Origin: Halapricum desulfuricans
Lineage (GTDB): Archaea > Halobacteriota > Halobacteria > Halobacteriales > Haloarculaceae
DNA length: 64,000 nucleotides
Reading direction: 5' to 3'
NCBI RefSeq assembly: GCF_017094465.1
Contig: NZ_CP064791.1
Coordinates: 806,001-870,000, forward strand
Below are positions 52,496 to 56,341 of the stretch, piece by piece; position 1 is the first letter of the stretch; each line of letters begins with the position of its first letter. Under the pieces are notes generated by a model that made no database searches, had not been told where the DNA came from, and saw only the letters and a program-made list of their open reading frames with translations. Made by a program: the position numbers and the translations under genes.

Positions 52496-52666
52496 ATGGC
52501 ACGGCTCACTATCGAGATGCCGACCGAACTCGCCGTTCGGGGGCGATCACGGCCGGTAGAACGGGACACTCCGTGTTCGAGCGTCGGTGCGGACGAACAG
52601 CCGGTTTCACCGGACGTTCGGCAGTTTCTGTCGTGGTTCGCCTGCTGGTCGCCAATCAATCGCTGA
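52496..52666 (+). CDS. Possible 56-residue ORF convergent with the actin-like gene
   Basis: ATG at 52496 gives MARLTIEMPTELAVRGRSRP, ending SWFACWSPINR before TGA at 52664-52666. CCTTTAGG (about 52464-52471) is 28 bases upstream, the correct TATA spacing. The end overlaps the 3' end of the actin-like gene by 11 bases on the opposite strand. Third-position GC is about 67%, lower than in nearby genes, and the product is basic, so it may be spurious. No family is recognised. Confidence 0.3.
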   Translation: MARLTIEMPTELAVRGRSRPVERDTPCSSVGADEQPVSPDVRQFLSWFACWSPINR

Positions 52667-53720
52667 GTCGCTCGGCGATCCGCTGGGCGCCAAGCGTCGC
52701 GGCGAGCGCCGGTTCCTCGGGCGCGACCGCCTCGATATCGCGGTTGAGTTCGTCGCTGGCCCGCTCGGCAAATTCGTCGACAATGCCCGGGATACAGGCC
52801 ATCCCGCCCGTGAGCACGACCGGTTTCTCGAGCGCGAGGTTGTACACCTTCATGTGTTCGTTGGCCAATTCGGGCAGGAAGGTGTTAGCGAACTCGTCGA
52901 CCACGTCGTCGACGTACTCGTCGACGGCGTCCATGACGCTGCGCTCGATGGTGAACTCGTGGGACCCGCCGCCGGGCTGCTGGATGATGTCGGTAAAGGG
53001 CTCGTAGTCCTCGAAGTCCGCGTGCTCTTCTTTGTACTCGCGGGCGGTCTGGACATCGATGTTGACCCGCCCCTGTGTCTCTTCTTCGACGTAGTTGGCG
53101 ATCACCCGGTCGACTTCGTTGCCGGTGACGGCCCCGGTGGTGAACGGCGCGAGTTGCTCGCCGCGGCGGTAGGCCGATGCCTCCAGGTTCGTCGATCCCA
53201 GATTGGCCGCCAGCAGGATCTCGTTGATCGCTTCCAAATCGTCCCCGAACGCCGGGATCGTCCCGCACAGCGACTCGGGGTAGCTCTCGACGAGTGCCTC
53301 GCCGATCGAACTGTTCTCGATAACCTCGTTGAGGTTCTCCAGTCCGGCCTCGTTGTCGATCGTCGGAATCGCGTAGACGACGGTGCTGTCTTCGGGGATG
53401 TCGTTGGCCTCGATGACCTCCTCGAAGAACGTGCTCGTCAGCTCCGCGCGCTCGTCGTCCTCGGGCAACCCGGACCGGAGCATGAACTCCACGCGGTCGG
53501 GATACTCCCGGGCAGCCTCCTCTCCGTAGAGAACCTGCTCTTCGCCGGTGAGTGCGTCCTCGTAGGTCGCCATGCAGGTGAGCGTGTTCACGATTTCGAG
53601 ATCCCCGTCGCCGTCGGGGTAGGCGATCACGGTCCTGGTACTGCCGAGTTTGACCCCGACCGGAACAGGTCCGTCCGTCGAACTATCGACCGCGTCGTCA
53701 GTCTCGTCGTCCTCACTCAT
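52656..53720 (-). CDS. Actin-like ATPase-fold protein, salactin-like
   Basis: 354 residues, very acidic. The actin/HSP70 core is seen in VPVGVKLGSTRTVIAY (phosphate 1 region), ILLAANLGSTNLEASAYRRG (phosphate 2) and PVVLTGGMACIPGIVDEFAE (adenosine motif). The usual Asp in phosphate 1 (DxG) is Lys and in phosphate 2 is Asn, so the nucleotide site is unusual. Halobacterium salinarum has a polymerising actin homologue, salactin; this may be its relative, but orthology is inferred, not shown. TATATAA (53747-53753) gives it its own promoter. A FlaD/E-domain gene lies immediately upstream on the same strand. Confidence 0.75.
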   Translation of the reverse strand: MSEDDETDDAVDSSTDGPVPVGVKLGSTRTVIAYPDGDGDLEIVNTLTCMATYEDALTGEEQVLYGEEAAREYPDRVEFMLRSGLPEDDERAELTSTFFEEVIEANDIPEDSTVVYAIPTIDNEAGLENLNEVIENSSIGEALVESYPESLCGTIPAFGDDLEAINEILLAANLGSTNLEASAYRRGEQLAPFTTGAVTGNEVDRVIANYVEEETQGRVNIDVQTAREYKEEHADFEDYEPFTDIIQQPGGGSHEFTIERSVMDAVDEYVDDVVDEFANTFLPELANEHMKVYNLALEKPVVLTGGMACIPGIVDEFAERASDELNRDIEAVAPEEPALAATLGAQRIAERLSD

Positions 53721-53746
53721 ACGCCTGCGTGATGGGACCCCCGAAG

Positions 53747-53753
53747 TATATAA
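53747..53753 (-). promoter_or_regulatory. TATA box of the actin-like gene
   Basis: TTATATA on the minus strand is centred 30 bases from ATG 53720, in the 67-base gap after the FlaD/E-like gene, so the actin-like gene can be transcribed separately. Confidence 0.6.
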
Positions 53754-53787
53754 CCGCCCGGAAAAAGTAAGCGACCGAACAGTTCGA

Positions 53788-54282
53788 TCAGTGCATCGCG
53801 GCCAGTTTCGCGATGTAGACGAGGCTCAACAGGTGGTCGTCGACGTCCAGCTGCGAGCCCTCGCTGGCCCCGGTTTCCTCGATGCCGAGCAGGTAGTCGT
53901 TCAAATCCGACTCGACGCCGTCGGTGATCCAGTCGATCGACTCGTAGTAGTTGAGCGCGTCCTGAGCGCCGCGGTACCCGCCGTGCAGCAGCAGGAACTC
54001 GAGCCACTCGAACAGCATGAACTCCGCAGCTTGGGTCTCCGGGAGCGTGGCCAGGTACGGCTTGGACGCGTCGTCGCTACCCGCCATCAGCGGCATCAGT
54101 TCGCGATAGAGTCGTGCCCGAAACCCCTCGTCGGTCACTGCACCCTCGCCGTCGACCTCGCCCCACTCCAGGTTCGGATCCGAGTCGGGCACCCGCTCCT
54201 CGTCCGGGACTGCGCCCGGTTCGCGGTCGCGTGCCATCTTCCGTAGCTCTTCGAGGTCGTAATCCCGGGGGTTGATCGTCAT
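53788..54282 (-). CDS. Stand-alone archaellum FlaD/FlaE-domain protein
   Basis: 164 residues. The C-terminal 100 residues match the Arch_fla_DE domain: KPYLATLPETQAAEFMLFEW, then LEFLLLHGGYRGAQDALNYY, ESIDWITDGVESDLNDYLLG and LLSLVYIAKLAAMH. In archaella FlaD/E (ArlD/E) link the motor to the chemotaxis machinery. Here no archaellum genes (flagellins, FlaHIJ) are near; instead the neighbour is an actin-like gene. The N-terminal 60 residues are charged and may be flexible. ATG 54282 is chosen (MTINPRDYDLEELRKMARD) with GATTTAAC about 32 bases upstream; a longer frame upstream is less acidic. Confidence 0.78.
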   Translation of the reverse strand: MTINPRDYDLEELRKMARDREPGAVPDEERVPDSDPNLEWGEVDGEGAVTDEGFRARLYRELMPLMAGSDDASKPYLATLPETQAAEFMLFEWLEFLLLHGGYRGAQDALNYYESIDWITDGVESDLNDYLLGIEETGASEGSQLDVDDHLLSLVYIAKLAAMH

Positions 54283-54418
54283 ATCTGTTGATCCAATGTT
54301 AGCCCTGATACGTGTTAAATCTTCCACACTGTCAGACAATGTTCGTATAGTTGTCCTGTCTACTGAGATACCAAATACGCTCACGGGCGGAGAGCGGTCT
54401 GTCCGTGATCGCGAGTCA

Positions 54419-56218
54419 CTAGATCCGTCGCTTGAGCTCGCCGACGAACAGCTTCCCGGCCAGCCGCGCCAGGGTCGGCACGCTCCTGAGGCCGTCGTTT
54501 CGCCACCAGAGCTCGTCCTCGCCGGCGATGCTGTACTCGCCGAAATCCGGCACCTCCTCGGCGATCGCCCGCAGCTTCGCTTCCCGCTGTCCCTCGGGTG
54601 TCGACTCGTAGATCTCGTCGACGCGGTCGACGACCCACCTCGAGGTATCGAGTCGATCAGTGACCGTCCGGAACGTCTCTTTGTCGAGCAGCCCGTGCTC
54701 GTACTTCAGTCGGTTCATCCGCTCGGCCGCCTCGTAGGTCGCTTCGACGATGTCGTCCCGGGAGAGTTCGTCCGTCTCGTAGCTCAACATCCGCTTCCAG
54801 CTGGGTTCGAGCAGCAGCTGTCGGTGGTCCTCGAGCGTCTCGGCGAGCGGCTCGTACCCGTACGCCTGTGGGTTCTCGAAGGCCGGGCTACCCGGATCCA
54901 GAAACGGTGCCAGCGGCGCGACGAAAGGGACAATTCGATCGTCGTCGATGTCCGTCAGGAGGTGCTCGGCGTACTCGACCGCACCGACGGCGTCCGCGTA
55001 GCTCTGGTCGGGAAGCCCGATCATGAAGAACACGTCGATGTTCCGACAGCCGTTGTCCAGCGCCGCCCGAAGCGTGTCCTCGATGGCTTCGTTCGAGACG
55101 GCGAACTTGCCCATCTTCTCGCGAATCTCGGGCTTGTGTGATTCGGGGCTGAGTTCGAGGCTGTAGCGTTCGACGGCGTCGTCGATCAGTTCGAAGTACT
55201 CCGCCGGCGCCGGGCCGAACAACTCGAAGACGAACTCGTTCCCGATGTCCTCCTCGGCCAGCAACGCAAAGAACTCTGTGGCGTAATCCCAGCCGCCCTG
55301 CCGGAGATCGTGAACGATGAAAATCGGGCCCTCCGAGAACGCGGTGATCGTCCGAACGTCCTCGATGAGGCGTTCCGGGGACCGGAACGCGGGCCCCGGA
55401 CGATCGTGGACGTCCGCGTAGGAGTCGGCACCGCCGCAGAACGAACACGCGTGGCGACAGCCCCGTGATGTCAACAACATGGTGATCGGCTTGTCGAGCC
55501 ATCCCTTGTGCGGCAGCACCTTCCGCAAGCTCCCGTACTTGAGCACGGATTTGATGGTGTAGGTGTACGACGGTACCGAGATATCGTCGAGATCGGCGGG
55601 CCGGTACGTCAGTGGGTTCACCGTCGTCTCGCCGTCCGTCCGATAGGTCAGGTTCGGCACGTCCGAGACGTCACCGTCGGTCGTCAGCGCGTCGACGAGT
55701 TCTTCCATCGGCCCTTCCGTCGAATCTCCCCGGAGGACGTAATCGACCGACGGGTATTCGACCAGTTCCTCGTGGTAGTACGTCGCACTCAGACCGCCGA
55801 AGATGACCGGTGCGTCGGGGTGGTGTTGCTTGACGAGTCGGGCGACTTCGATCGCACCGTGTGCGTGGGGCAGCCAGTGGAGGTCAATCGCGTAGATGCT
55901 TGCCGTACAGGCTGCGATCTCCGTCCCCGGATCGTATCCCGGATCGGTCAACATCTCGCGTGCGAGGTTGATGATCCGGGCGTTGTATCCCCCGCGTTCG
56001 AGGCGGTCGGCCAGGCTCGTCAGCCCGATCGGGTACATCTCGAAGACCGGTGAAGCGGGGATGACGTCGCTGATCGGGCCGAGCACCTCCGGCCGCTCCC
56101 GGAAGTCGAAGATGCTCGGCGGGTGGAGGAACGCGACGTCGGGTTCGGAAAACAGGAGACGCCGGGCCGTCCCGGACCCGTATGACCCGTGGTTGCGGCC
56201 GGGCCTCAGGAACTCCAT
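54419..56218 (-). CDS. B12-binding domain / radical SAM enzyme
   Basis: 599 residues. The N-terminal part (about 30-200) is a cobalamin-binding-like domain with FEMYPIGLTSLADRLERGGY and PVIFGGLSATYYHEEL. The radical SAM motif is TSRGCRHACSFCGGADSY (C-x3-C-x2-C). The last 200 residues are helical (LLEPSWKRMLSYETDELSRD). The family includes methyltransferases and tRNA- or lipid-modifying enzymes; substrate unknown, but the length and layout match the haloarchaeal B12-binding/radical SAM group. ATG 56218 (MEFLRPGRNHGSYGSG) is preferred over a start nine codons earlier. Confidence 0.85.
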   Translation of the reverse strand: MEFLRPGRNHGSYGSGTARRLLFSEPDVAFLHPPSIFDFRERPEVLGPISDVIPASPVFEMYPIGLTSLADRLERGGYNARIINLAREMLTDPGYDPGTEIAACTASIYAIDLHWLPHAHGAIEVARLVKQHHPDAPVIFGGLSATYYHEELVEYPSVDYVLRGDSTEGPMEELVDALTTDGDVSDVPNLTYRTDGETTVNPLTYRPADLDDISVPSYTYTIKSVLKYGSLRKVLPHKGWLDKPITMLLTSRGCRHACSFCGGADSYADVHDRPGPAFRSPERLIEDVRTITAFSEGPIFIVHDLRQGGWDYATEFFALLAEEDIGNEFVFELFGPAPAEYFELIDDAVERYSLELSPESHKPEIREKMGKFAVSNEAIEDTLRAALDNGCRNIDVFFMIGLPDQSYADAVGAVEYAEHLLTDIDDDRIVPFVAPLAPFLDPGSPAFENPQAYGYEPLAETLEDHRQLLLEPSWKRMLSYETDELSRDDIVEATYEAAERMNRLKYEHGLLDKETFRTVTDRLDTSRWVVDRVDEIYESTPEGQREAKLRAIAEEVPDFGEYSIAGEDELWWRNDGLRSVPTLARLAGKLFVGELKRRI

Positions 56219-56341
56219 GCCCCTACATACTGGCCGAAATGCCAAGAAGACACGGGGTCGCCACCACCGTGTTCGGATATCGGGCCGCGTCCGACACAGC
56301 GACGGTCTCTCGACGTTCGGATCTTCAGGATTTCCCCCACA

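Follow-up and report, generated by a model that had tools for sequence, protein, structure and literature searches.

The actin homologue salactin and the archaellum adaptor ArlD are encoded by a conserved gene pair in haloarchaea

Background

Actin-like filaments can work with a dedicated adaptor, as MamK, which positions magnetosomes, does with MamJ and ParM does with ParR. Among the actin homologues of haloarchaea, the one nearest to the protein considered here is salactin of Halobacterium salinarum (VNG0153C, PF25229). Purified salactin hydrolyses ATP and polymerises with both ATP and AMP-PNP, and its dynamically unstable filaments extend from foci at the cell pole and then retract (PMC10746226). 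Deletion of the gene left motility unchanged and caused a DNA-partition defect at low phosphate, and synteny around the gene was described as poor on the basis of Halobacterium and its closest relatives (PMC10746226). The polar, dynamically unstable filaments and the ATPase activity have been shown for H. salinarum only (PMC10746226). Volactin (HVO_2015) is likewise a haloarchaeal actin homologue that forms dynamic filaments, the tips of which meet the membrane (PMC10869688), and has been described as the only actin homologue identified in Haloferax (PMC7617734). It constitutes a separate Pfam family (PF25216), however, and no link to ArlD has been reported for it.

ArlD, a protein with a FlaD/E domain, works with ArlCE, ArlH and CheF and is needed for archaellation in Haloferax volcanii (PMC8978795, PMC6509185). 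In that species ArlD/FlaD-GFP forms polar foci (PMC6509185, PMC11588486), and small FlaD foci move about before they become fixed at a pole (PMC6509185).

Here we analyse a window of 64,000 nucleotides from the genome of Halapricum desulfuricans, in which a gene for an actin-like protein lies next to one for a FlaD/E-domain protein. The protein families are known, but the conserved partnership of salactin and ArlD appears to be new. We found no such link in the open-access literature searched, a negative result that falls short of proof.

Results and discussion

The gene pair in Halapricum desulfuricans

A preliminary description of the window had placed the two genes on one strand, each with its own TATA box and with no archaellum genes nearby. 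Both genes are indeed on the minus strand with the FlaD/E gene upstream (Table 1), and the pair, at 0.858-0.860 Mb of the genome, lies 1.27 Mb from the archaellum operon at 2.126-2.14 Mb. Salactin, present as a single copy in this genome, has a clear box (TTATATA on the minus strand, plus-strand positions 53747-53753) about 30 bp upstream of its ATG, and an equivalent box occupies the same place in Haloarcula, Halomicrobium, Halorhabdus, Halorientalis and Haloplanus, but arlD is preceded only by a weaker, AT-rich candidate. The gene adjoining arlD (54419-56245, minus strand) encodes a B12-binding radical SAM protein (TIGR04190), which showed no conserved association with the pair.

Table 1. 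Positions of the arlD-salactin pair and its parts within the window
Feature	Position	Strand	Details and evidence
salactin, actin-like ATPase	52656..53720	-	354 aa; PF25229 E=1.1e-184, NF053533 603 bits
arlD, FlaD/E-domain protein	53788..54282	-	164 aa, directly upstream of salactin; PF04659 E=2.3e-27
FlaD/E domain of ArlD, residues 73-161	53800..54066	-	Pfam match; well-predicted helical region of the AF2 model
N-terminal motif of ArlD, (N/D)PxxYDxxELRxxA, residues 3-18	54229..54276	-	Alignment of ArlD-type proteins; short predicted helix 10-18
arlD-salactin intergenic region, 67 bp, with salactin TATA box	53721..53787	-	Sequence
Possible TATA-like box upstream of arlD	54315..54320	-	Sequence only; weaker than the salactin box
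Lys24 codon, phosphate-1 loop KLGSTRT, Asp in related actins	53649..53651	-	Invariant in 62 salactins
Asn173 codon, phosphate-2 loop NLGSTNLE, aligned with Asp of MamK DIGAGTTD	53202..53204	-	Invariant in 62 salactins; MamK alignment

The actin-like protein is clearly salactin. It matches PF25229 (613.5 bits, cut-off 27.1) and NF053533 (603.4 bits, cut-off 400) over its whole length, which settles a relationship that had previously been offered as inference, and the window protein thus belongs to the same family as the H. salinarum protein. Its AF2 model (pLDDT 90.7) has the actin fold, and a Foldseek search with this model returned MreB and MamK as the nearest solved structures (E 1e-17 to 1e-21). 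Against the MamK family model NF040964 the protein scored 32.6 bits, far below the cut-off of 400, and the volactin family PF25216 was not among its Pfam matches at E<=1.

At the nucleotide-binding site, positions held by Asp in related actins are changed to Lys24 and Asn173. These substitutions had been taken as a hint that the ATP use of the window protein may be unusual. They are real but not peculiar to it, being invariant in all 62 aligned salactins, including those from the Halobacteriaceae and those of non-haloarchaeal genomes that we take to fall into a Methanocella-like and an Archaeoglobi-like group. The unusual site is therefore a trait of the family, and because published salactin is an ATPase (PMC10746226), we reject the idea that Lys24 and Asn173 mark a loss of ATP use peculiar to this protein.

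The FlaD/E-domain partner is ArlD

The upstream gene encodes ArlD, the archaellum switch-complex adaptor, from a position outside the archaellum operon. Its product matches PF04659 with 95.2 bits against a cut-off of 21, and Pfam finds no other domain in it. Only two FlaD/E proteins exist in the window genome, this one and a 576-aa ArlCE, and the archaellum cluster near 2.13 Mb (cheY-cheC-cheD-arlCE-arlF-arlG-arlH-arlI) is without arlD. In the Halobacteriaceae, by contrast, a FlaD/E protein of 156-159 aa, ArlD, is encoded directly upstream of arlCE in the archaellum operon. A tree of 108 FlaD/E domains separates ArlCE-type from ArlD-type proteins with branch support of 98/95, and the ArlD-type clade contains 51 of the 52 domains from salactin-adjacent genes, that of the window included; deeper branches inside this clade are poorly supported. 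The window protein thus shares with ArlD of H. volcanii and of the Halobacteriaceae its FlaD/E domain, its clade, an N-terminal PxxYDxxELR motif and its status as the FlaD/E protein that is not ArlCE. Most of the 29 genomes compared (mostly salactin-positive) have just ArlCE and the salactin neighbour as their FlaD/E set. Since gene location does not define a protein, the assignment stands despite the distance from the arl operon. The earlier view of a stand-alone adaptor is thus corrected: the protein is the ArlD of its genome rather than a generic FlaD/E protein.

Haloferax and Haloplanus have an extra ArlD-type copy, and these copies, together with the weak deep branches, mean that one-to-one orthology of ArlD is not proven in those two genera. 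The Haloplanus loci (L224-L226) hold a third, stand-alone ArlD-type protein encoded away from both salactin and ArlCE.

In the AF2 model of ArlD the FlaD/E domain is helical and well predicted, and a short helix is predicted at the N-terminus. A search of the PDB gave no convincing sequence or fold match. The N-terminal motif is conserved among ArlD-type proteins; its reading as a salactin-specific peptide is not supported, since some lineages lacking salactin keep the motif.

Conservation of the pair

We surveyed 292 haloarchaeal genomes, 142 of which match the salactin profile (140 above its cut-off), and read the neighbourhoods of 123 salactin genes, scoring gene order from stop codons. At 92 of the 123 loci (93 counting one with an assembly gap), and in 25 of the 28 genera, the gene immediately preceding salactin, in the same orientation, encodes a FlaD/E protein. 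In a second, named set of 80 loci, which overlaps the first in species, the two genes are adjacent at 67 of the 78 loci that could be scored. Adjacency of arlD and salactin far exceeds chance. A lack of conserved adjacency had been named beforehand as an outcome that would refute the proposed link, and the survey shows the opposite. An apparent 691-aa salactin of Haloferax massiliensis was dismissed as an assembly gap of N.

All other non-spurious neighbour families of salactin occur in at most 8 of the 28 genera each, which indicates that the pair stays together while its surroundings change. Such scrambling between genera, and the variety of settings in which the pair is found (in a chemotaxis cluster, isolated, or with overlapping genes), make it very improbable that the arrangement is an ancestral leftover devoid of functional meaning, a reading already disfavoured, even though both genes are old in haloarchaea and an ancestor may have had them in a che or arl cluster.

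The linkage is not obligatory, for the genes are apart in the Halobacteriaceae, in some Halapricum and in some Halorhabdus. Two Halosimplex-type genomes have the FlaD/E gene 5 kb from salactin, and in Halovenus-type genomes it is downstream. Poor synteny as a general rule was rejected: it is true of the Halobacteriaceae but not of most genera in the two other large families sampled, and the impression came from Halobacterium and its close relatives, which keep arlD in the archaellum operon. In the window and in most other genera, unlike the Halobacteriaceae, salactin is beside arlD. Haloferax mucosum has a second salactin on contig 4 (L095); this copy is less divergent, and the short FlaD/E gene that accompanies it lies downstream, not upstream.

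Salactins outside haloarchaea differ in this respect. None of the Methanocella-like or Archaeoglobi-like loci has a FlaD/E gene within 6 kb of salactin, and some of these genomes have none anywhere, so a FlaD/E partner for the salactin family as a whole was rejected. At most Archaeoglobi-like loci (L159-L167, L169 and L170) salactin is followed by genes for a coiled-coil protein and a MinD/ParA ATPase, making a salactin-MinD positioning operon possible, and some of these loci have genes for a pilus- or archaellum-like platform and ATPase alongside. The partner of salactin thus varies by lineage, but genes for a positioning ATPase and for type IV filaments appear repeatedly. At L159, L162 and L166 an ArlJ-like T2SSF protein is encoded after the coiled-coil and MinD/ParA genes, and at L164 the genes found upstream encode an archaellum-like ATPase and a T2SSF protein.

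Association with chemotaxis and archaellum genes

The pair is part of a chemotaxis cluster, with the order cheY-cheC-cheD-(MCP)-arlD-salactin, in Haloferax, Halobellus, Halogeometricum and one more genus; the Haloferax salactin of this cluster is divergent. In Halovenus carboxidivorans salactin genes are found within the arl operon itself (cheY-cheC-cheD-arlCE-arlF-arlG-salactin-arlCE-arlH-salactin-arlCE-arlH-arlI), and archaeon SHR40 has salactin copies within its archaellum operon in a similar order. At both of these loci (L077 and L092) each of the two salactin copies is followed by an arlCE copy, and arlH is also duplicated at L077. At Haloferax loci (L134-L145, L086 and L087) a further, short FlaD/E gene follows 2.3-3.9 kb downstream, beyond another gene, which at L134 is a convergent one for a HisKA_7TM histidine kinase. 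Two Halobellus loci from genomes without salactin (L185 and L186) retain cheY-cheC-cheD-arlD, indicating that ArlD outlives salactin where the archaellum stays.

Judged by gene order only, HVO_1202 is probably the salactin of H. volcanii. In a 2026 paper ArlD/HVO_1202 is handled as a single transcription unit, whose expression goes up in a csmR mutant along with that of arl and che genes (PMC13286277). This result, and the overlap or near overlap of arlD and salactin in some genera, would fit a pair kept only for co-expression or for a shared growth-phase programme, its proteins never touching. We consider this unlikely, because a separate TATA box precedes salactin in Halapricum, Haloarcula and other genera, so that co-transcription is not the common factor, and because retention of ArlD tracks salactin in genomes without an archaellum.

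Co-occurrence of ArlD, the archaellum and salactin

In all 292 haloarchaeal genomes the presence of a FlaD/E protein coincides exactly with that of ArlH or salactin. Three genomes have salactin but neither ArlH nor ArlI, one of Haloplanus (G289) and two of a single genus (G276 and G182). Each of them has one FlaD/E protein, encoded next to salactin, and no ArlCE, whereas FlaD/E proteins are absent from all 62 remaining archaellum-less genomes. The association is significant by Fisher's test (p=2.3e-5), although this value ignores relatedness and the three genomes amount to about two independent cases. That these genomes retain the pair without an archaellum argues for a role of ArlD with salactin in addition to its role at the motor. 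CheW-domain proteins are present in these three genomes, so a chemosensory role for ArlD is also possible there. Conversely, archaellate lineages without salactin keep ArlD, which must therefore have salactin-independent work; in such genomes a distance of 5-7 kb usually separates the two FlaD/E genes.

The dependence might also run the other way, with salactin filaments positioning ArlD-containing archaellum motors or sharing them out at division, and DNA partition being secondary. Salactin is nearly confined to archaellate haloarchaea (ArlH is present in 137 of 140 salactin genomes versus 90 of 152 others, uncorrected for phylogeny), and five genera have its genes within che or arl clusters. 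MamK is among its closest solved structures, FlaD foci in H. volcanii move before they settle at the pole (PMC6509185), and Archaeoglobi-like salactins accompany a coiled-coil protein and a MinD/ParA ATPase, some also pilus-type genes. Nevertheless, the pair is kept in the three archaellum-less genomes, many archaellate haloarchaea lack salactin, and loss of salactin leaves swimming normal in H. salinarum (PMC10746226), so we regard this reading as rather unlikely.

Proposed function

The arlD-salactin pair is a conserved haloarchaeal module. That ArlD couples salactin filaments to the cell pole is the most likely reading and has, in our judgement, about an even chance of being correct, given the pairing and joint retention of the genes and the published polar localisation. 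ArlD, with or without ArlCE, would hold the filament ends at the pole, and such tethering would link the filament system to the polar site of motility and chemotaxis; in lineages that have lost the archaellum, ArlD would still serve salactin. A cytoskeletal module tied to the pole had already been suggested from the window, and conserved pairing and the published polar positions of salactin and of ArlD agree with it, while the contact between the two proteins is something we infer. The same applies to anchoring or nucleation of the filaments and to any influence on where archaella are placed or on DNA partition, all of which should be read as predictions. Normal swimming of the H. salinarum mutant and the separate genes there argue that Halobacterium, at least, can swim without such coupling.

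The proposed arrangement resembles MamK/MamJ and ParM/ParR in joining an actin filament to a dedicated adaptor, and MamK is among the solved structures nearest to salactin, but the adaptor in the window is an archaellum protein of the FlaD/E type, and nothing suggests that it is related to MamJ or ParR. Dynamic instability and the DNA-partition defect of the H. salinarum mutant (PMC10746226) could suggest plasmid-type segregation, with salactin as a ParM-like filament and its neighbour as a ParR-like DNA-binding adaptor. This is highly improbable, since the partner has by Pfam a FlaD/E domain only, groups with archaellum ArlD and matches no solved fold; no gene for a ParMRC-type DNA-binding adaptor was found beside salactin.

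A broader version of polar coupling is offered tentatively, as possible but less probable than not. In it, ArlD-type adaptors would nucleate or tether salactin at the pole, the filaments would place the motility machine, and perhaps chromosomes too, or distribute them when the cell divides, and H. volcanii would have a second actin, probably HVO_1202.

Conclusions

The positioning of the archaellum and the chemotaxis system is explained only in part by MinD proteins, and the pairing described here ties an archaeal actin to both. A polar and genetically conserved partner is a concrete candidate for the anchor of salactin. If the proposal is true, haloarchaea would have an actin cytoskeleton built on the polar base of the archaellum. 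The pairing also points to a second actin homologue in Haloferax, and H. volcanii would then have such an actin beside arlD in its chemotaxis cluster.
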